From NCBI GenBank assembly GCA_903877125.1, contig CAIRCM010000231.1, positions 1 to 39,627 on the forward strand: DNA of 39,627 nt. The letters run 5' to 3'. Each line of letters starts with the position of its first letter. Positions within the stretch are counted from its first letter, which is position 1. Of this stretch, positions 10,144 through 18,045 are shown in pieces. The notes under the pieces were generated by a model, which worked only from the letters and a program-made list of their open reading frames with translations, ran no database searches and had not been told where the DNA came from. The DNA is from an uncultured Acetobacteraceae bacterium. GTDB lineage: Bacteria; Pseudomonadota; Alphaproteobacteria; Acetobacterales; Acetobacteraceae. The translations under genes and the position numbers were made by a program.

Positions 10144-11424
10144 TCAGCGCGGCGGTAAGCCACCCGGTCTGGGCGGGATACGCGGCACCATCCGCGGCAG
10201 CGCGCCGCCAATACCCAGGGGTTGGCCAGGGGGGAGACCCGGGGGAGGATATGCGCCACCCGGCCCCAAAGCCGCTGTCGGTTGATTGATCGCCCCCGGC
10301 GGTGGCGGGACGGGGGCGGGACCCGGTCCGCCACCCGGCTGGCCGAGGGGCCCGCCGGGCGCCAACCCAGTCGGAACGGTCGGCGCATCCGGGGGCCGGG
10401 CGGTTGACACAGCCAGTCCGCCCGCGGGCAAGCCGCGTGACAGCAGCACGTCCGTCAACCCGAAGCCGCCGCCGGTTTGCGCGGTCAGATGCAGCACGAA
10501 CAACCCATCCTGACTCGCCGGCGCCGCGATACCCCCGATCCCTGCGCGATAGCCGCCGGCCAGACTGACGGAACCTGACCCGAAGCGGGCATGTGCCTGA
10601 ACGATCAACCGCGTCGTGCCCGCCCCGAACCAGGCCGGGGGATCGGTCAACAGAAGATCCGGCGCCACGGCATCGGCATGCAGCACACCGCGGTCGTAGA
10701 TGCCGCTCGCCGTCACAAAGGTGCCAGCCAACGCGCCGTTATCGCCGTTGGCCAGCAGCGCCAGCCCGCCGATCCACGATTGGCCGTCCAACCGCACCAT
10801 CGGTCCATGCACCAGGACGCGGCCTTGCGGTGCGCTATCCACGCGGCTGGCCACGATATCGCCCTCACTGTCGCGCAAGCCGCTGACCGAAACCCATGCG
10901 CCAACCTGGATTTGCGCCGAGCCGACGGTGCTCGCGCGCACTTTCACCCGCTGGCCCGCGACGGTGAATACCACGGGATTGACGCGTTCGATGGCCTCGA
11001 TCGGGCCCGTAACCTCATGCCGGACCGAAATGCGCAGCGCGCTGGCCGCATTGCCCGTACTCGTGGCGGCGATCGCGATCACTTGCCCAGCCCGCAGATC
11101 CCGCCTCGTCCCGGCGCTGCCGTCGATATCCACCGGCACGCGCGGGTCCAGCCCGACTTCCAGCCCATCGATGCAGACGCTGGCGAAGCCGGAAACAATG
11201 CCCACGATCCCGGTGCCGCCGCTGCCACGGTCGGCGAGCCCCCCCGTGCCCCCGCTGCCACGTTCCGCCACCATCCCCGTGCCGCCGCCGCCACGCTCGG
11301 CAAGCGGCGCCGATCCGTCCGGTTCAGCCCGGCACATCGCCGGCGTGACCGCGTACCGGGGCACGGGCGCGGTCTGGCAGCCGGCGGCGAGCAGCAGCAG
11401 CGTCAGGACCCCAAACCGCTTCAT
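10144..11424 (-). CDS. DUF5666-domain lipoprotein
   Basis: The 426-aa product starts MKRFGVLTLLLLAAGC, a lipoprotein signal with lipobox LAAGC and Cys16 as the predicted lipidated residue, so it should be anchored on the periplasmic side of a membrane. The mature N-terminus has three repeats of A(E/D)RG(G/S)GGTG (about residues 46-78). After these come beta-rich segments (GQRVKVRAS, GAWVSVSGLRDSEGDIVASRVD and similar) that look like the small beta-barrel repeats of DUF5666. The last 80 or so residues are Pro/Gly-rich and probably disordered. The start codon overlaps the stop of the DUF6502 gene by four bases (ATGA), so the two are translationally coupled; these two families are often neighbours. 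The biochemical role is unknown. An upstream start at 11499 would hide the lipoprotein signal and is rejected. Confidence 0.85.
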   Translation of the reverse strand: MKRFGVLTLLLLAAGCQTAPVPRYAVTPAMCRAEPDGSAPLAERGGGGTGMVAERGSGGTGGLADRGSGGTGIVGIVSGFASVCIDGLEVGLDPRVPVDIDGSAGTRRDLRAGQVIAIAATSTGNAASALRISVRHEVTGPIEAIERVNPVVFTVAGQRVKVRASTVGSAQIQVGAWVSVSGLRDSEGDIVASRVDSAPQGRVLVHGPMVRLDGQSWIGGLALLANGDNGALAGTFVTASGIYDRGVLHADAVAPDLLLTDPPAWFGAGTTRLIVQAHARFGSGSVSLAGGYRAGIGGIAAPASQDGLFVLHLTAQTGGGFGLTDVLLSRGLPAGGLAVSTARPPDAPTVPTGLAPGGPLGQPGGGPGPAPVPPPPGAINQPTAALGPGGAYPPPGLPPGQPLGIGGALPRMVPRIPPRPGGLPPR

Positions 11425-12287
11425 CGACCTTTCGTCTCCTCGTCGGCTTGGCCGGTGCCGTCGTCGCGATAGACGTAAAGCCCAAAATTGACCCGCCACC
11501 GATGCGGCTCGTCCGTCACCTCGTCAACCTCCGGCTTTCCTTCGGTCATCGCATCGGCGACGCGGGTCATGTCCGCGACCACCCGTGCCGCGGTCTCCCG
11601 GGCGGCTGCTTCCAAGGCGCGTGCGGTGCTTTCGTCCAACCGGTCGTAATGCACGGACCGGTCCAGAAAGGGCGGTGCGTCGGGCGCCGACACATTCGCG
11701 GCAGCAGCCTCCAGGTGGTCGCGCAGGTTGCGGCCAAAATAGAACATCTGTTCTGTGCGCCCGCCACGCGGAATGAACGAGACGGTGTTGAGGTGAACCC
11801 GGTCCTGTTCGTCCAGTGTCGCCACGCCCTGGGTCAGCCAGTCGTTCAGAACGGTACGGGGGCGCAAATCGGTCGTGACCGAGGCGATCAACGCGTCGAA
11901 GGATCCCTCGCCCGATCGTGGCAGCGGCTTGGGGGTGCCGTCAGCCTCGGCGAATTCGGGCATCGACAGCCAATGGGCGATGGCGCGCGTGCCTATGGTA
12001 ACGGTGGCGGGAACCGCGTCCGGTTCCGGCTGATCCGCGCGCAGCCGGTGCACCTCCCGACGTTGCAGGCCGGTGATCAGGCTCACGAGGCTGTCGGTGC
12101 GGTTCTTCTCGTGCCGCAACACGTCGTGGATCGCGACATCCACATAGAGCTGACGCAGCAGCTCCGCCATGGCCGGGAACGTGGCTCCGGCCTGAATGAG
12201 CAGGCGCACCAGCGGTCGCAGCATGCGGCGAGCCGCCCGCAGCAACGCGTCCGGCGGAGGGGGATTGGGCCGTTGAGTTCCGTCCAT
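11421..12287 (-). CDS. DUF6502 family protein, possible DNA-binding regulator
   Basis: The 288-aa protein has the family pattern LLRAARRMLRPLVRLLIQAG, then FPAMAELLRQLYVDVA and DSLVSLITGLQRREVHRLR, which resembles a winged-helix/helix-turn-helix arrangement in the first 80 residues. The rest is a helical domain with no motif I recognise. There are no signal peptide or membrane segments, so it is probably cytoplasmic. ATG at 12287 is chosen; a GTG at 12302 is possible. A perfect palindrome lies at 12330-12346, 42 bases upstream, and the same site precedes the PqqD operon. Autoregulation by this protein is therefore a testable inference. It is first in an operon with the DUF5666 lipoprotein gene. 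Confidence 0.8.
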   Translation of the reverse strand: MDGTQRPNPPPPDALLRAARRMLRPLVRLLIQAGATFPAMAELLRQLYVDVAIHDVLRHEKNRTDSLVSLITGLQRREVHRLRADQPEPDAVPATVTIGTRAIAHWLSMPEFAEADGTPKPLPRSGEGSFDALIASVTTDLRPRTVLNDWLTQGVATLDEQDRVHLNTVSFIPRGGRTEQMFYFGRNLRDHLEAAAANVSAPDAPPFLDRSVHYDRLDESTARALEAAARETAARVVADMTRVADAMTEGKPEVDEVTDEPHRWRVNFGLYVYRDDGTGQADEETKGR

Positions 12288-12329
12288 GCCGATTTCTAAC
12301 ACCAGGCGTTCGAAAAGGCAGCTTTGAAT

Positions 12330-12346
12330 GTGTGTAAATTACACAC
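12330..12346 (-). promoter_or_regulatory. Perfect 17-bp palindromic operator upstream of the DUF6502-DUF5666 operon
   Basis: GTGTGTAAATTACACAC has 7-base arms with a 3-base centre, and the symmetry extends to 19 bases (12329-12347). It differs at only three positions from the palindrome at 17681-17697, giving the consensus GTGTGYAAAWTRCACAC. It sits 42 bases before the DUF6502 start. Hexamers in the same positions as in the other promoter would be CATTTG and TTCAAA on the minus strand, which are weak. I found no third copy in the window. Confidence 0.75.
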
Positions 12347-12445
12347 AAATGACGATATCTCGATCGCCACCCCCAAGACAAAGTCCCAATCCATCCTAAG
12401 GCAACGCGCAAAAATGACCGCTCCAAGTCGCGGCGGTCTCGTTAC

Positions 12446-12480
12446 ATCGTCATGGCCCGGACGAGCCGGGCCATGACGAT
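12446..12480. terminator. Strong 15-bp hairpin between the two minus-strand operons
   Basis: ATCGTCATGGCCCGG (12446-12460) and CCGGGCCATGACGAT (12466-12480) pair perfectly around a 5-base loop. The hairpin lies 41 bases past the end of the urea-transporter/M23 gene and upstream of the DUF6502 operator, where it would separate the two transcription units. No T run follows on the minus strand. The core also occurs at 5828-5848 and is a dispersed repeat. Bases 12489-12524 next to it repeat 10048-10083. Confidence 0.5.
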
Positions 12481-12520
12481 TTGGGAGTGGTCGGCCGACT
12501 CGTTTCATTTTGGGCATTGC

Positions 12521-14710
12521 CTAATCTCCGCTCGGCGATCCCGGCTCGAAGGATAGTTGCGTGATCGCCAGCGCGCCGTCCGCCAGTTCCGCGCGCACCG
12601 CGATGGCGCCGCGCACCGGTGCCACCGTCGTCTCCACCGCCCGCACGGGAAACCCCGAACCCGCTTCCATCGCGGCCCGAACCACGACGGCGGCGCCGGC
12701 AACGAAGCGCATCGCAAGGGCGCGGCGCGGCGCCCGCCGGAACGGGCCGCTGGCGGCATTCGGCAGCGTGTCCGACCACATCAGGCCGTGCTCGCGCGCA
12801 TAAGGCACCGTCGCGAGCCCGAGGAACAGGCACGAAAGCAATGCCGTCGGCCGCCCTTCCACGGCCAGAACGCGAAACGCGGCGGGGCCGGCATGCGCCA
12901 CAAGGCGCGCGCAACCGTCCGTGAAGATTTGCCGCCCCGCGTCGTCCAGCGTGATCCGTATCGTGCCAACCCGTGTCGGAGCGCCCAACCAACGGCGGGC
13001 ACGCTCGCCCTCGGCGCGTAGAATGTAGCTGGCCTCGCCCGGCGCCATCCCCGCCAGCGCGGCAAGGCAGGCGGGATCGGGCAGCACCGGATGCACGAGG
13101 TCGCCATGCATCGGCAGACCGCTCGCCGACCAGACCGGTCCTTCGGCCGTGACGGTGACGTAGTTGGCGACCCGGAACGGGATCGTCGGCGCCCCGATCT
13201 CCGCCGTCGCCTGAACATGCATATGCAGATGCGGCACCGGCGAGCGGCCGGAATTGCCGAGCGCCCCGAGCGGCGTGCCGATCTCCACGCGCTGACCGGG
13301 TGCGACGGCGATGGAATGCTGGCGGAAATGCGCCAGGAGGACATAGCCACCCTGGTCCATCGCGATCGCAACGCAGTTGCCCCAGTTCGCCGCCAGGTTC
13401 ACCCCGCCCGGCGCATTATCGGCCACGCCATCGATAACCCGGACCACGGTGCCCGACGCGGGGGCATGGACCGGCACGCCGAAGCTCGCATAGGCCCCGA
13501 GATCGCCCTCGCACCCCGGCGGGCACGCTCGGTCTGCTGCGTCGTGGCATTCGAGGTCCAGCGCATGACGCCACGGCCCCCGATGGCTGAGCGAGCCGTT
13601 CTCGCCCTGGGTGACCCGCGCGGCCCGCGCGATCGGCAGGATGAGGTGCGGCAGATGCGCACCCGCGAACCGGGTCCTGGCTTCCTCGGCGGTGCGCCAG
13701 GTCTCGTCCGGGCCGGCCGCGGGGTTGGGGGCGAAGAATGGACGCGCATCGCCGTCGCGCAGACGCAGCGCCGCGATCATCGTCCAGGTCGTGAGAATGG
13801 AGGGAAGCGGCAGGAACGCCCAGCCGCCGCCGGTCCAGACATGCTGCTGCACGCAGGCAAGGCACGCGGCGAGCGCGCCGGCGATGGCCGCAAGCCCCAG
13901 CGCGCGCCAACCGGGCACGAGATAGATACCGCCGGTCGCGAGGCCGGCCAGCAAATAAGTGTGGGCGGAGGCAAGCCCGGCCCAAGGAACGTAAAGCGCT
14001 TCCAACGCCTCGATTATCGCCACACCGCCGCAATATCCCGCCACCGCGCAGACGAACGCCGTCCGCGACCAAACCAACAGCGCGGCGGCCACGATCGCCC
14101 CGGGGAGCGCGTGCGGCAGAAAAATCACCGTCCCCAGCGCGCGCAGAAACGCAAGCGGATACAGCCCGATCCATGCCGGTTCGGCGAAAAGCGCGGGGTG
14201 CTGCCCCACCGCCGTCCCCGCCCAGACCGGAAACAGCAGCAGCATCGAACCGAACACCAGACTGAACGCGAGACTGAGCGGCGGCATCCCCGCCAGCCGA
14301 GGCGCGAGATGCCAGCACGCCGCCGCCAGCACCAAGGCAACTATGACGACGGCCGCCAGAAGCAGGGCAATGACATGCGGCGCGACCGCGCTGCCCTCCG
14401 TGATCCATGCCACCGCCAGCCCGGCAAGCACCACGTTATAGAGCAACGTTCCGTTCGCGATCATCGCTTGGGGAAAGCCCAAAAGGCGGGCGAACCCGAC
14501 CCCGAACCCGGCAGCCGCCAGTGCGAAGCCGGCGAAGCGCGGATGCAGCGCCAGCGCGGCCAGCAGCACCGCGCCGAACCAGGGATGCGGCACGTAGAAC
14601 AACGCCCCGAACGCCCGAGCCAATGGCGCGACCGCCGGCAACACATGGGACAGCGACGGCAGGCGCGGCCAGCGCAAGGGCCGCGCGCCATCGAACGAAA
14701 CAACGTACAT
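12521..14710 (-). CDS. Urea-transporter-like membrane domain fused to an M23 (LytM-type) peptidase domain
   Basis: The 729-aa protein has an N-terminal hydrophobic half (residues about 20-315, roughly ten membrane segments) resembling the UT/SLC14 urea channel family, with NGTLLYNVVLAGLAVAW and LPSILTTWTM as the two pseudo-repeat signatures. Residues about 375-505 form an M23 metallopeptidase: His382 and Asp385 in RHALDLE, His461 in LLAHFR and the HxH pair 494/496 in PHLHMHV are the expected zinc and catalytic residues. The first ligand pair is spaced HxxD rather than the usual HxxxD. About 220 further C-terminal residues are unassigned. It is the last gene of the PqqD-led operon, 66 bases after the decarboxylase. 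The fusion suggests passage of a small amide or amine coupled to cleavage of a peptide, but the substrate and the side of the membrane are unknown. Confidence 0.85.
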   Translation of the reverse strand: MYVVSFDGARPLRWPRLPSLSHVLPAVAPLARAFGALFYVPHPWFGAVLLAALALHPRFAGFALAAAGFGVGFARLLGFPQAMIANGTLLYNVVLAGLAVAWITEGSAVAPHVIALLLAAVVIVALVLAAACWHLAPRLAGMPPLSLAFSLVFGSMLLLFPVWAGTAVGQHPALFAEPAWIGLYPLAFLRALGTVIFLPHALPGAIVAAALLVWSRTAFVCAVAGYCGGVAIIEALEALYVPWAGLASAHTYLLAGLATGGIYLVPGWRALGLAAIAGALAACLACVQQHVWTGGGWAFLPLPSILTTWTMIAALRLRDGDARPFFAPNPAAGPDETWRTAEEARTRFAGAHLPHLILPIARAARVTQGENGSLSHRGPWRHALDLECHDAADRACPPGCEGDLGAYASFGVPVHAPASGTVVRVIDGVADNAPGGVNLAANWGNCVAIAMDQGGYVLLAHFRQHSIAVAPGQRVEIGTPLGALGNSGRSPVPHLHMHVQATAEIGAPTIPFRVANYVTVTAEGPVWSASGLPMHGDLVHPVLPDPACLAALAGMAPGEASYILRAEGERARRWLGAPTRVGTIRITLDDAGRQIFTDGCARLVAHAGPAAFRVLAVEGRPTALLSCLFLGLATVPYAREHGLMWSDTLPNAASGPFRRAPRRALAMRFVAGAAVVVRAAMEAGSGFPVRAVETTVAPVRGAIAVRAELADGALAITQLSFEPGSPSGD

Positions 14711-14776
14711 CGCGTGAAATTCCTGCTGGAGCGGAAGGAGGGGCGATACCCGCTGGGACCGCCCCGCCTGTTTCGA

Positions 14777-16198
14777 TCAGGCCTGGAGCCAGGCCGGCAT
14801 GCGTTCGCCGCGCGTGACATCCTCCAGCGTTTCCCGTTCCCGGATCACCTCGATTTCGCCGTCCTCGCACACCAATACGACCGCCGGACGGTAGGTAATG
14901 AATTGCATCGACTGCGTGATGTTGTAGGCGCCCACCGGGTGCAGCACGAGGTGATCGCCCACATCCTGCGGCGGCAGAGCGACCTGTTCGCGCAGCACAT
15001 CGATATTCATGCAGAGACAACCGTAGAGTTTCACCAGACTCTTCGGTACATCGCCCGCCGGACGCGCCGGGCGGACATCGAACCGATACCAGGCGCCGGT
15101 GTAGAGAAGGTTCACGCCCGCATCCACAAGCAGCGACGCCGAAGAATCCTGGCCCAGAACCAGGTTGGCTTTCACGTCGCGCGCCGCGAGATCGGGCGAC
15201 CCGCCGCGCGTCCCGCCCTTCACGGCAACCACCGTCGTAATCAGCGATCCCGCCTCATCGACCAACGCGCGCCCGCTCTCCAGGAACAGCCGCGGGCGCC
15301 GGCCGCTCGGCAACGAATTCAGCACGCCGCAGATTGCTTCGGCATAATCCTCGATCGGCGGCACCGCTTCGTCGATCGGAAGTTGCGTGTAATGCAACGT
15401 GCTGCGGGACGGAAATCCGCCGCCAAGATTGATGAACGGCAACGTCCAGCCGAACGCCGCATGGATGCGCTCGAACATGCCCACGAGTTTCTCGGTGGCG
15501 GTGCGATAGGCACGTGGATCGAGAATATACGTGCCGATATGCGTGTGCAGCCCGGTCAGCACCAGCTTGCCCCCGCTCGCGGCGATGCGCTGCACGACAC
15601 GCCAAACTTCGCCATTCTCCAGCGCGAAGCCGAATTTCGACCAGATCGGACGGATGCCTGCGTCCAGCCAAACGCGAAGCGCGATCGAAACGGGTTCGCC
15701 GCGCGCCTCGGCGATCGATTCCAGGCACAGCAGTTCGTCCCAATTATCGACCTGGATATGCGCCCCCTCCGCCGTCGCGCGCTCGAGGATCGCTCGGGAC
15801 TTGTGCGGACCGTTGAAAATGATCTCGCGCCCCGGCACGCCGAGCGAGCGAGCCTTTTCGTATTCGAAATCGGATACGACCTCCGCGATGGAGCCCTCCT
15901 GGTGAAACACGCGACAGATCGCGCCGAGATAATTCGTCTTGTACGACCAGGCGAACGTCGTGTTCGGATAGCGCGACCGGAACGCGGCGCGGGCTCGGCG
16001 CACGGTGGCGCGCAACGTACGCTCCGAAAAGACGAACAAGGGCGACCCGAAACGCGCGGCGAGTTCGGATACCGCGACCCCGTCGATCGTTTCGGCTACA
16101 TCGGACGCGGGGCCAAGCGAAAAACGATTGCGCTCGGACATCGCATTGCTGGCGCTGGCGAGATCGCGGCCGATCGTGGGCGGAACATAGGCGGTCAT
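14777..16198 (-). CDS. Fold-type III PLP-dependent decarboxylase (diaminopimelate/ornithine decarboxylase-like)
   Basis: The 473-aa enzyme belongs to the alanine racemase/LysA fold and probably removes the alpha-carboxylate of an amino acid or amino-acid conjugate. PLP Lys87 is in AWSYKTNYL. HTHIGTY, FINLGGGFPS and FLESGRALV are the substrate and phosphate loops, and the C-terminal beta domain has GCLCMNIDVL (the catalytic C-x3-D element) and HPVGAYN. The VxGxC-S-GD pattern of true LysA is altered, so it is not a plain lysine-pathway enzyme; it is closer in style to PvsE-like and D-ornithine-type decarboxylases. ATG at 16198 is 28 bases after the ATP-grasp stop; an upstream start at 16282 would overlap that gene. 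It is third in the operon, so the ligase and decarboxylase probably act on one metabolite. Confidence 0.85.
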   Translation of the reverse strand: MTAYVPPTIGRDLASASNAMSERNRFSLGPASDVAETIDGVAVSELAARFGSPLFVFSERTLRATVRRARAAFRSRYPNTTFAWSYKTNYLGAICRVFHQEGSIAEVVSDFEYEKARSLGVPGREIIFNGPHKSRAILERATAEGAHIQVDNWDELLCLESIAEARGEPVSIALRVWLDAGIRPIWSKFGFALENGEVWRVVQRIAASGGKLVLTGLHTHIGTYILDPRAYRTATEKLVGMFERIHAAFGWTLPFINLGGGFPSRSTLHYTQLPIDEAVPPIEDYAEAICGVLNSLPSGRRPRLFLESGRALVDEAGSLITTVVAVKGGTRGGSPDLAARDVKANLVLGQDSSASLLVDAGVNLLYTGAWYRFDVRPARPAGDVPKSLVKLYGCLCMNIDVLREQVALPPQDVGDHLVLHPVGAYNITQSMQFITYRPAVVLVCEDGEIEVIRERETLEDVTRGERMPAWLQA

Positions 16199-16226
16199 GT
16201 CCTTGGGTCTCCGTATTGGTTGTGGA

Positions 16227-17321
16227 TCAGAGGAATGCTTGTGCGGCGCGTGGCGCGCGAGCGAGATGCCCCGCATGACCAAGCGCCGCGAGGTCGGCGA
16301 TATCGCCCGCGTAGTCGACGCAATGGCGGATGAAGATTCGCCCCGGCGGGCAGGCGGCGGGGGCCGGAACGGTGCCAGATCGCATCAGGTCCAACAGCGT
16401 CGCGGGTAGATTGCAGCCGAGTTGAGCGGGAAAATCGACCCAGGCGGGAAAACGCGGGTTCATTTCCAGCAGCTGATATTCTTCGGCGCCACTCGGCAGC
16501 AAAAATTCGAGTTCGAATGGCCCGTCCCATTTCAGCGCCGCGATCAAGGCCCCGGCCATCTCGGTCAGCACGGGATCGTCGATCGCGATGCCCGCGAAAC
16601 CCTTGCCCGCGCGACTGCGCAGCGTCTTGCGGATCGCACAGGCACCAAGAATGCCGCCGCCACCGTCGCCCAAGCCAACGACATTGTACTCCTCCCCAGT
16701 GAGCGCCTCCTGCAGCAGCACCGGCGTGCCCCATTGCGCGGACAGCTCCGCGAACGCCATCCGCAGCGCCGGCAGGTTCGTCACACGCTGCGCGTCGCAA
16801 TGCGCGCCCTTGACGTAGGCCGGCAGCCCAATATCGGCCGCGGCCAGAACAATATCGGCCTCGGACTGCAGCGCCGCCGTGCGCGGCGTGGAAACCCCCG
16901 CTTCGGCGCAAAGTTCCGTTAGGCGGGACTTCTCCCGGCGGGCGAAGGCACGCTTGCCCGGCAGGCAGCAGCCGATGCCAAGGGTCTCGAGCGTGTCGGT
17001 GATGGACATCAGCACCGGCAACTCGGCGTCGAGGCAGGGGATCAGCAGACCGATCGGATCGCGCGCGGCAATCGCGCCGAGGCGCGCCCGCCATGCCTCC
17101 GCCCCGGTCCCGGGGAACGGCATCGCGTAGACCGCGTCCAGGGTGTCCAGGCCGGTGGAGAAAATGCCGCTCTCCATCGTGTCGTAGGACAGACCGATGA
17201 TCCGGATGCCGGGATTCGCGCGGCGAAGGCTGGCCGCGACGGCGGAGCCGGGCTGAGGGCTCTCGCCCCGGTGCAGCCCGGTGACCGCGACAGTCGCGAT
17301 GGAGCGGTGCGGAGAATGCAT
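16227..17321 (-). CDS. ATP-grasp domain ligase
   Basis: This 364-aa protein should use ATP to activate a carboxylate and join it to an amine or thiol. Residues about 1-110 form an N-terminal Rossmann-like pre-ATP-grasp domain (TVAVTGLHRGESPQPGSAVA, LIPCLDAELP). Residues about 115-300 are the ATP-grasp domain, with PAYVKGAHCDAQRV (ATP-binding Lys), LLQEALTGEEYNVVGLGD and the metal-binding FELEFLLPSG...EMNPRFPAW. This is the carbamoyl-phosphate-synthetase-like subfamily that includes peptide and amino-acid ligases. It lies 4 bases after the PqqD-like gene and 28 before the decarboxylase. The neighbouring PqqD-like protein might present a peptide or carrier to it. The true substrates are not deducible from sequence. 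Confidence 0.85.
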   Translation of the reverse strand: MHSPHRSIATVAVTGLHRGESPQPGSAVAASLRRANPGIRIIGLSYDTMESGIFSTGLDTLDAVYAMPFPGTGAEAWRARLGAIAARDPIGLLIPCLDAELPVLMSITDTLETLGIGCCLPGKRAFARREKSRLTELCAEAGVSTPRTAALQSEADIVLAAADIGLPAYVKGAHCDAQRVTNLPALRMAFAELSAQWGTPVLLQEALTGEEYNVVGLGDGGGGILGACAIRKTLRSRAGKGFAGIAIDDPVLTEMAGALIAALKWDGPFELEFLLPSGAEEYQLLEMNPRFPAWVDFPAQLGCNLPATLLDLMRSGTVPAPAACPPGRIFIRHCVDYAGDIADLAALGHAGHLARAPRAAQAFL

Positions 17322-17325
17322 CGGA

Positions 17326-17616
17326 TCAGCCCTCGCCGCTGCGGTCGGACCAAAGCCCCAGCCCCACGAGATCGCTCAAAAAAAGCGCCACATCGCGCTC
17401 GGCCGCCGCACGCCGTACCTCGAACCGCGCGGCGAGATCGTCCGCGATCGCTCTCGTGTCCTGCCCCTCGCGCAGTCCCTCGATCACCAGCGCGCCCGTG
17501 TGGCTGAGGTTGAACATCGCCCCGCCAACCGGGTCGAACGCAAGGCCGTCGGCCAGAAGCCGCAAACCTGTGAGGCGCCTGCTCGCGCCACCGTGGACTG
17601 GCAATATGGCGTTCAT
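17326..17616 (-). CDS. PqqD-like small protein (RiPP-recognition-element fold)
   Basis: The 96-aa protein has the PqqD (PF05402) pattern: a beta-strand start with LLADGLAFDPVGGAMFNLSH, the TGALVIEGLREGQDTRAIADDL helix, and AERDVALFLSDLVGLGLW at the end. PqqD folds bind peptide substrates for modifying enzymes; in other systems they occur alone next to ATP-grasp or kinase-like genes. ATG at 17616 is supported by AAGGAA about 8 bases upstream. It is the first gene of the operon, 4 bases before the ATP-grasp gene. A sigma70-like promoter with a palindromic operator lies 58-86 bases upstream. No precursor peptide gene or radical SAM enzyme is visible nearby, so classical RiPP biosynthesis is not shown. 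Confidence 0.8.
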   Translation of the reverse strand: MNAILPVHGGASRRLTGLRLLADGLAFDPVGGAMFNLSHTGALVIEGLREGQDTRAIADDLAARFEVRRAAAERDVALFLSDLVGLGLWSDRSGEG

Positions 17617-17673
17617 ATTCGTTCCTTTCACTCGGCGGCGGGGCGAACCATTCACGCCCGATGCCTGTCGCAA

Positions 17674-17702
17674 TCAATATGTGTGCAAAATGCACACGTC
17701 AA
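17674..17702 (-). promoter_or_regulatory. Sigma70-like promoter with palindromic operator in its spacer, driving the PqqD operon
   Basis: On the minus strand the sequence reads TTGACG (17702-17697), a 17-base spacer, then TATTGA (17679-17674). The operator GTGTGCAAAATGCACAC (17681-17697, perfect 7-base arms) fills the spacer and overlaps the last base of the -35 element, the classical position for repression. It shares the consensus GTGTGYAAAWTRCACAC with the site at 12330-12346. The predicted leader to the PqqD-like ATG at 17616 is about 50 bases. The binding protein is unknown. Confidence 0.72.
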
Positions 17703-17875: not shown

Positions 17876-18045
17876 ATGCCAGCCCGTATAAGCTTTGACG
17901 TACCGGCCGACCGAATCACGTCATGCCGGCGAATGCCGGTATCCAAGCCTTGCGAGGCTGGGACTTCCGAAAGGCGTAGATACCGGCATTCGCCGGCATG
18001 ACGGGTCGGTATCCGCGACGAGTCAATCATTGCGTGGGCTAGTAT
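17876..18045. repeat. MITE-like element, full-length copy
   Basis: The left end ATGCCAGCCCG (17876-17886) and the right end TGGGCTAGTAT (18035-18045) are degenerate inverted repeats of the ends seen at 5662-5774. The interior is a long nested palindrome: CGTCATGCCGGCGAATGCCG on the left and its complement on the right, flanking GAGGCTGGGACTTCC. It is almost identical to the reverse-oriented copy at 9915-10083. No coding capacity is seen. It occupies the middle of the gap 17698-18125, where I see no gene. Confidence 0.72.

Follow-up and report, generated by a model that had tools for sequence, protein, structure and literature searches.

Two 17-bp palindromes lie in front of two operons of an uncultured Acetobacteraceae bacterium (GenBank assembly GCA_903877125.1, contig CAIRCM010000231.1, positions 1 to 39,627, the 39,627-nucleotide stretch hereafter called the window), one preceding the genes for a DUF6502 and a DUF5666 protein and the other an operon that begins with a PqqD-like gene. 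Their resemblance raises the question of whether they are operators of a common regulator and, if so, which protein reads them. Our answer, to which we give a probability of about 0.86, is that both would be operators of DUF6502, acting as a helix-turn-helix (HTH) dimer that controls its own gene, the DUF5666 gene and the PqqD operon, with residues 80 and 82 of the recognition helix setting the operator letters and with repression through promoter overlap. Site uniqueness, conservation in relatives, covariation and promoter geometry were computed, and from the sequences we infer protein binding, the dimer, repression and the signal. The question turns on three features:

12330 to 12346, no strand assigned: putative operator 1, GTGTGTAAATTACACAC, 43 bp 5' of the likely DUF6502 ATG
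17681 to 17697, no strand assigned: putative operator 2, GTGTGCAAAATGCACAC, preceding the PqqD operon, with the minus-strand flanks TTGAC and ATA as in relatives
11421 to 12302, minus strand: DUF6502, the proposed regulator (Pfam PF20112, 4.3e-25; likely start ATG at 12287)

Both palindromes had been noticed in a sequence-only reading of this DNA, and both are indeed present, differing at three positions and separated by 5.35 kb; operator 1 pairs as 8-1-8 and operator 2 as 7-3-7. A scan of the window with their joint pattern, allowing up to three mismatches, returned these two places only (4 matches, each place on both strands), compared with a mean of 0.16 and a maximum of 2 matches in 100 shuffles of the window. 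Across the whole assembly (5,154,967 bases, 97.9% complete) the patterns GTGTGYN5RCACAC and GTGTGN7CACAC each matched operators 1 and 2 only, and a reversed-pattern control gave 0 matches. The mismatch-tolerant scan and the whole assembly thus bear out the earlier statement that the window holds no other such site. By hand arithmetic, two random places in 5.15 Mb would fall within 5.35 kb of each other with a chance of about 0.002.

We then asked whether the site is kept in relatives. DUF6502 is present in 34 of 200 genomes of the family. The literal pattern GTGTGYN5RCACAC is not the conserved form: it occurs in 33 of the 200 genomes, nearly always with other cores and at about the level of the reversed control, so that the expectation of GTGTGYAAAWTRCACAC being conserved upstream of orthologous operons failed, its letters standing at background. 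The site as such fared better, since its position 5' of DUF6502 and its shape are kept while the letters differ, and the DUF6502 genes of relatives are preceded by a palindrome of equal length and form, GTGGGANNNNNTCCCAC. The corresponding pattern GTGGGAN5TCCCAC was found in 22 of the 34 genomes with DUF6502 versus 5 of the 166 without it (Fisher p 2.8e-16; such genome-level p-values overstate, as rows within one genus are not independent), and its reversed control had no link to DUF6502 (16/34 and 61/166 genomes by hand count). Within the window's own genus, 17 of 22 DUF6502 genes carry the helix letters HRKE and none of these 17 lacks a GTGGG site, four HRKD, HRKL or NRKL genes have none, and the window's QRRE gene has GTGTG. 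Five NRKL or HRKL genes of this genus (L207, L231, L251, L258 and L266) were seen to lack both TGGG and TGTG sites; the NRKL and HRKL genes may recognise a third kind of site, or autoregulation may have been lost in them.

The letters that differ between relatives proved to follow the protein. DUF6502 genes were collected by family, genus and phylum searches, together with 80 named loci kept of 367; removal of near-duplicates reduced 267 genes to 160, one without an assigned helix was dropped, and in the remaining 159 the recognition helix was compared with the 450 bp upstream of DUF6502. One of two symmetric palindrome types precedes its own gene in 122 of the 159: TGGGN7CCCA in 108 (mean 2.0, largest 5 in 50 dinucleotide shuffles) and TGTGN7CACA in 14 (mean 0.54, largest 2). 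Genes with an HRK helix have TGGGN7CCCA in 108 of 120 cases and TGTGN7CACA in 0, whereas TGTGN7CACA precedes all 11 genes with a QRR helix, 2 of 4 with HRR and the single TRR gene. Residue 82 therefore splits the two operator types with 0 exceptions in 122 genes, K82 going with 108 TGGG and 0 TGTG and R82 with 0 TGGG and 14 TGTG (Fisher p 1.2e-18, kinship ignored). The window protein, with its helix GLQRREVHRL (Q80 and R82), falls on the TGTG side, and operator 1 agrees in class and position with the self-operators of other RR-type DUF6502 genes. Upstream of many HRK genes there are two sites, spaced by 25-82 bp and in one case by 190. In L153 and L248, two DUF6502 genes diverge within one locus with an operator between them.

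Residue 82 also stands out when the whole protein is considered. Among 250 alignment columns it is the only one that shares no residue between the operator classes, and it carries 0.52 of the 0.52 bits of information, residue 80 ranking third; this test used 120 rows, split 106 to 14, the 106 falling two short of 108 apparently because rows with identical names were merged. Kinship was checked on a 118-row tree for which the helix residues had been masked. Its 83 rows with a resolved operator comprise 69 K/TGGG and 14 R/TGTG, none crossed. Each trait switches five times along the tree, and the four independent pairs with support, or five when all branches are counted, are concordant without exception. 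In this tree the window and the QRR relative closest to it, G076 (53% identical), adjoin the HRK/TGGG relative L202, so that the switch in the window's lineage may be fairly recent.

The rule that QRR goes with TGTG and HRK with TGGG came first from other genomes and was fixed when two near-identical genes of family f12 with TGTG were already known. In a fresh test on 17 new f12 DUF6502 genes, QRR had TGTG in 8 of 8 and HRK had TGGG in 4 of 5, none crossed, and the QRR sites often read ATGTGYAAATTRCACAT, the core letters of the window. The four HRR genes of this set had TGTG in two cases and no site in two, which moved the weight of the rule from residue 80 to residue 82. A second fresh set, 9 plasmid genes from 74 matching plasmid records, was entirely HRK, with TGGG in 4. 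On these grounds the recognition-helix code would pair H80/K82 with TGGGA and Q80/R82 with TGTGY. The same data bear on the suggestion that another protein binds the sites, DUF6502 being merely a conserved neighbour and target. A HATPase-type kinase-like gene, divergent in some loci, is indeed an equally close neighbour, but the letters track residue 82 of DUF6502 across lineages whose neighbours differ (kinase-like, VWA lipoprotein-like, fasciclin) and the site is seldom found in genomes lacking DUF6502 (the 5 of 166 above), so that we regard another binder as quite improbable. As the site is conserved and its letters covary with the DUF6502 helix, DUF6502 is the likely regulator of both sites, and its earlier nomination as candidate regulator is strongly supported by operator letters that change with the recognition helix.

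What kind of protein this is was examined by domain searches and modelling. The window protein belongs to DUF6502 (PF20112) with 88.5 bits against a gathering cut-off of 27, over residues 19-280, and it is the only DUF6502 protein encoded in its genome. Searches for DNA-binding domains of known regulator families (LacI, TetR, MarR, GntR, IclR, MerR and others) gave only DUF6502 in Pfam at E up to 0.001 and nothing in NCBIfam. An AlphaFold model, built on a 53-row alignment, has a mean pLDDT of 76 and shows a helix-turn-helix formed by helices 70-77 and 81-89, where the local pLDDT is about 90; the start of the second helix is where residues 80 and 82 lie. The same helices appear when the N-terminal part is modelled alone. 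HTH-domain regulators are common among the weak Foldseek matches. An HTH near the N-terminus and these matches liken the protein to MarR, PcaR, CRP and other winged-helix regulators, which usually have palindromic operators some 17 bp long, although DUF6502 has no significant structural or sequence match to them and we do not claim membership. A sequence search of the PDB found no relative (best E 0.52), and a literature search found no paper on DUF6502 and none on six operator or accession strings. DUF6502 is thus most likely an HTH autoregulator, with both window sites, judged by their sequences, as its operators.

How DUF6502 would act is suggested by the position of operator 2 in a promoter on the minus strand:

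17697 to 17702, minus strand: -35 element TTGACG of the promoter containing operator 2, assigned from the sequence and from relatives' sites flush with TTGAC
17674 to 17679, minus strand: -10 element TATTGA, assigned from the sequence, 17 bases from the -35 element

The palindrome had been described as filling the 17-base spacer of this promoter. The 17-base spacer is real, but with TTGACG at 17702-17697 and TATTGA at 17679-17674 it runs from 17696 to 17680 and is shifted by one base against the palindrome, the outer G of which also ends TTGACG. Operator 2 thus stands in the context TTGAC, operator, ATATTGA. A stock promoter scan called no promoter at operator 1 or operator 2. Among relatives' sites 5' of DUF6502, TTGAC is flush with the site in 58 of 196 (56/120 loci), always on the strand opposite DUF6502 and never (0) on its own strand, and 39 of these 58 have TA at the first two -10 places, 17 bases away, versus 14 of the 138 others. 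An operator between -35 and -10 elements with a 17-base spacer was accordingly found at operator 2 and at 39 of 196 relatives' sites, and was not seen at operator 1; sites far from DUF6502 have the TTGAC flank in 6 of the 20 fetched from 50 listed. With TTGAC flush opposite DUF6502 and TA at the -10, the operator in relatives is by its flanks the predicted spacer of a divergent promoter.

The overlap of operator 2 with a core promoter favours repression as the predicted mode of action. A protein bound in a promoter spacer usually blocks polymerase, and spacer-binding activators of the MerR kind exist. Since operator 2 is a promoter spacer, bound DUF6502 should exclude RNA polymerase from the PqqD promoter, and a signal would release it. 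Of the 'shared repressor' put forward earlier, the shared regulator is strongly supported and 'repressor' is deduced from the promoter overlap. That DUF6502 might instead bind as an activator or dual regulator would suit the many upstream regions with two sites at varied spacing; against this, the operator is the exact TTGAC to -10 spacer in 58 of 196 sites, and we consider activation unlikely. On the minus strand the palindrome at 17681 was flagged as terminator-like by a terminator scan, which would be expected if the palindromes were RNA hairpins, either terminators or leader structures. Across 174 TGGG sites, however, pairing at positions 6-8 is only 0.57, 0.52 and 0.34 while the outer letters are fixed, operator 2 lies inside a promoter and 5' of the start, and a hairpin leaves the covariation with a protein residue unexplained, which makes RNA structure barely credible here. 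Two inverted repeats lie nearby, at 12450-12482 (CGTCATGGCCCGG / CCGGGCCATGACG) and at 17920-18005 (GTCATGCCGGCGAATGCCGG / CCGGCATTCGCCGGCATGAC), possibly terminator and REP-like elements.

Several results weigh against DUF6502 as the regulator of both sites. Raw genome counts alone are uninformative, since among the 200 genomes the reversed control is commoner than the pattern itself. A symmetric site is missing from 12 of 120 HRK and 2 of 4 HRR genes, from all NRR (15), NRK (3), TRK (3), YRK (1) and PRR (1) genes, and the TGGG site from five HRK genes of Rhizobium/Mesorhizobium plasmids, one of which has a near match. Some NRR genes have a lopsided site instead; by eye, at least 7 of the 15 (L059, L321, L327, L329, L247, L324 and L325) show one such as GTGGGTAAAAGTYACAC, as if one half were TGGG and the other TGTG. 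The supported independent switches number only four, for which a sign test gives p 0.125 and 0.05 is unreachable. The protein model has a low pTM, 0.44, and Foldseek found no significant fold match (best E 0.28 for the whole protein, 2.3 for the N-terminal part). Operator 1 is without a recognisable -35 or -10, and related PqqD operons in two other genomes, G068 and G038, have neither palindrome type in front. The last point would be expected if operator 2 were a chance look-alike and operator 1 alone functional. Yet the 5.15 Mb hold just two matches, of which operator 2 is one, close to the other, and it has the TTGAC-operator-ATA context of 58 relatives' sites; we find a look-alike highly improbable and retain DUF6502 as the regulator of both sites.

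The remaining genes of the two operons are as follows:

10144 to 11499, minus strand: DUF5666 exported lipoprotein-like protein (Pfam PF18914, 1.1e-9; likely ATG at 11424)
17326 to 17673, minus strand: PqqD-like, first gene of the target operon (Pfam PF05402, 5.1e-12; likely ATG at 17616)
16227 to 17321, minus strand: ATP-grasp-like ligase (NCBIfam carbamoyl phosphate synthase-like, 4e-18; Pfam ATPgrasp_Ter, 1e-5; both below cut-off)
14777 to 16282, minus strand: PLP-dependent decarboxylase, LysA/FslC-related (Pfam PF02784, 8.9e-32; TIGR01048, 7.4e-66, below cut-off; likely ATG at 16198)
12521 to 14710, minus strand: fusion protein with a urea-transporter-like (UT) membrane domain and an M23 peptidase domain (PF03253, 3.7e-23; PF01551, 3.1e-12)

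The earlier calls of DUF6502, DUF5666, PqqD, the decarboxylase and the UT plus M23 protein were right; for ATP-grasp a match exists, but under the Pfam cut-off. The DUF6502 stop and the likely DUF5666 ATG overlap as ATGA at 11424-11421, and DUF6502, as an inferred dimer on operator 1, would regulate both its own gene and the exported DUF5666 protein transcribed with it. The likely PqqD ATG lies 64 bases 3' of operator 2, followed in order by the ATP-grasp-like, decarboxylase and UT/M23 genes, and binding to operator 2 would control this operon. Of 150 family genomes, 3, counting the window's own, encode a homolog of the decarboxylase at E up to 1e-60; G068 holds all four genes of the operon and G038 two (decarboxylase and UT/M23). 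As these related operons lack the site, operator 2 looks like a local gain, or a loss elsewhere, and control of the PqqD operon peculiar to the window's genome. The 'one functional regulon' of the sequence-only reading fits two sites and one DUF6502 gene, with the qualification that the PqqD operon is only a local member, the site being missing in those two relatives. Plasmid matches to the decarboxylase are distant (27-32% among the 15 matches listed), and a literature search found no paper on PqqD combined with ATP-grasp, a urea transporter and M23; for DUF5666 it listed four papers.

Around DUF6502 itself the company is partly constant. A DUF5666 homolog follows it in 17 of 19 fetched regions, one of the two exceptions being cut off by the contig end, and in all 6 plasmid loci annotated there; in three of the f12 loci opened (L379, L380 and L387) a short lipoprotein-like gene ending GIGGTG replaces DUF5666. 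The divergent gene varies by lineage: a HATPase-type kinase-like motif was found in 16 of 60 named loci, 15 of them divergent, and in f12 two loci have VWA-domain proteins and another a fasciclin/RTX protein. The relatives' divergent kinase-like gene has no homolog in the window (best E 0.06). On the Rhizobium plasmids L374, L376 and L377, DUF6502-DUF5666 lies downstream of flagellar hook-associated genes, in the same direction and without a self-operator. An initial search for regulon members with GTGGGN7CCCAC was overwhelmed by tRNA T-loops (GTGGGTTCGAATCCCAC) and gave no usable information. RgpF-like and glycosyltransferase genes lie near far sites, and other far sites lie by unrelated genes. 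RgpF-like genes of two genera (L127:5066-6226 and L132:1528-2793) each have GTGGGAN5TCCCAC some 40 bp in front of them, a distant target common to both, and an ABC transporter ATPase with a gene starting SVIGAGFGRTG occurs at the far site L125:4961 and, in another genome, beside DUF6502 in L208. The surface and envelope theme among these neighbours is suggestive. We tentatively propose, as a possibility rather than an expectation, that DUF6502 and an exported partner (DUF5666 or small lipoproteins ending DGIGGTG) form a regulator-plus-exported-sensor module in Alphaproteobacteria and some other Pseudomonadota, controlling envelope and surface genes (kinase-like, VWA, fasciclin/RTX, glycosyltransferase, M23 peptidase), with specificity switched by K82 to R and the rare PqqD/ATP-grasp/decarboxylase operon recruited through an operator-spacer promoter.

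Camas et al. (2010, PMC2978694) report a comparable code for the LacI family: in local regulation, two nucleotides covary with two amino acids, and convergent events support the code. DUF6502 residues 80 and 82 and the operator letters covary in a like manner. The difference is that LacI regulators are an established family backed by experiments, whereas DUF6502 is an unassigned family in which a decisive part is shown for one residue only. Studies that correlate factors with their sites in the MerR and IclR families (PMC5045206, PMC8222616) are said to use a comparative argument of the same type; those are other protein families, and Pfam finds only DUF6502 in the window protein.

Taken together, the two sites are very probably part of a family-wide, residue-coded system, and the data suggest that DUF6502 is an overlooked regulator family with a readable DNA code. 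A family of 'unknown function' would thereby acquire a function at the molecular level, together with a binding site and a rule that works at the level of a residue, and this rule would let operators, and thus regulons, be read in many DUF6502 genomes. The family would also be a clear case from nature in which a regulator and its operators have changed in step, and operator 2 would provide the first regulatory link for the uncharacterised PqqD/ATP-grasp/decarboxylase operon.

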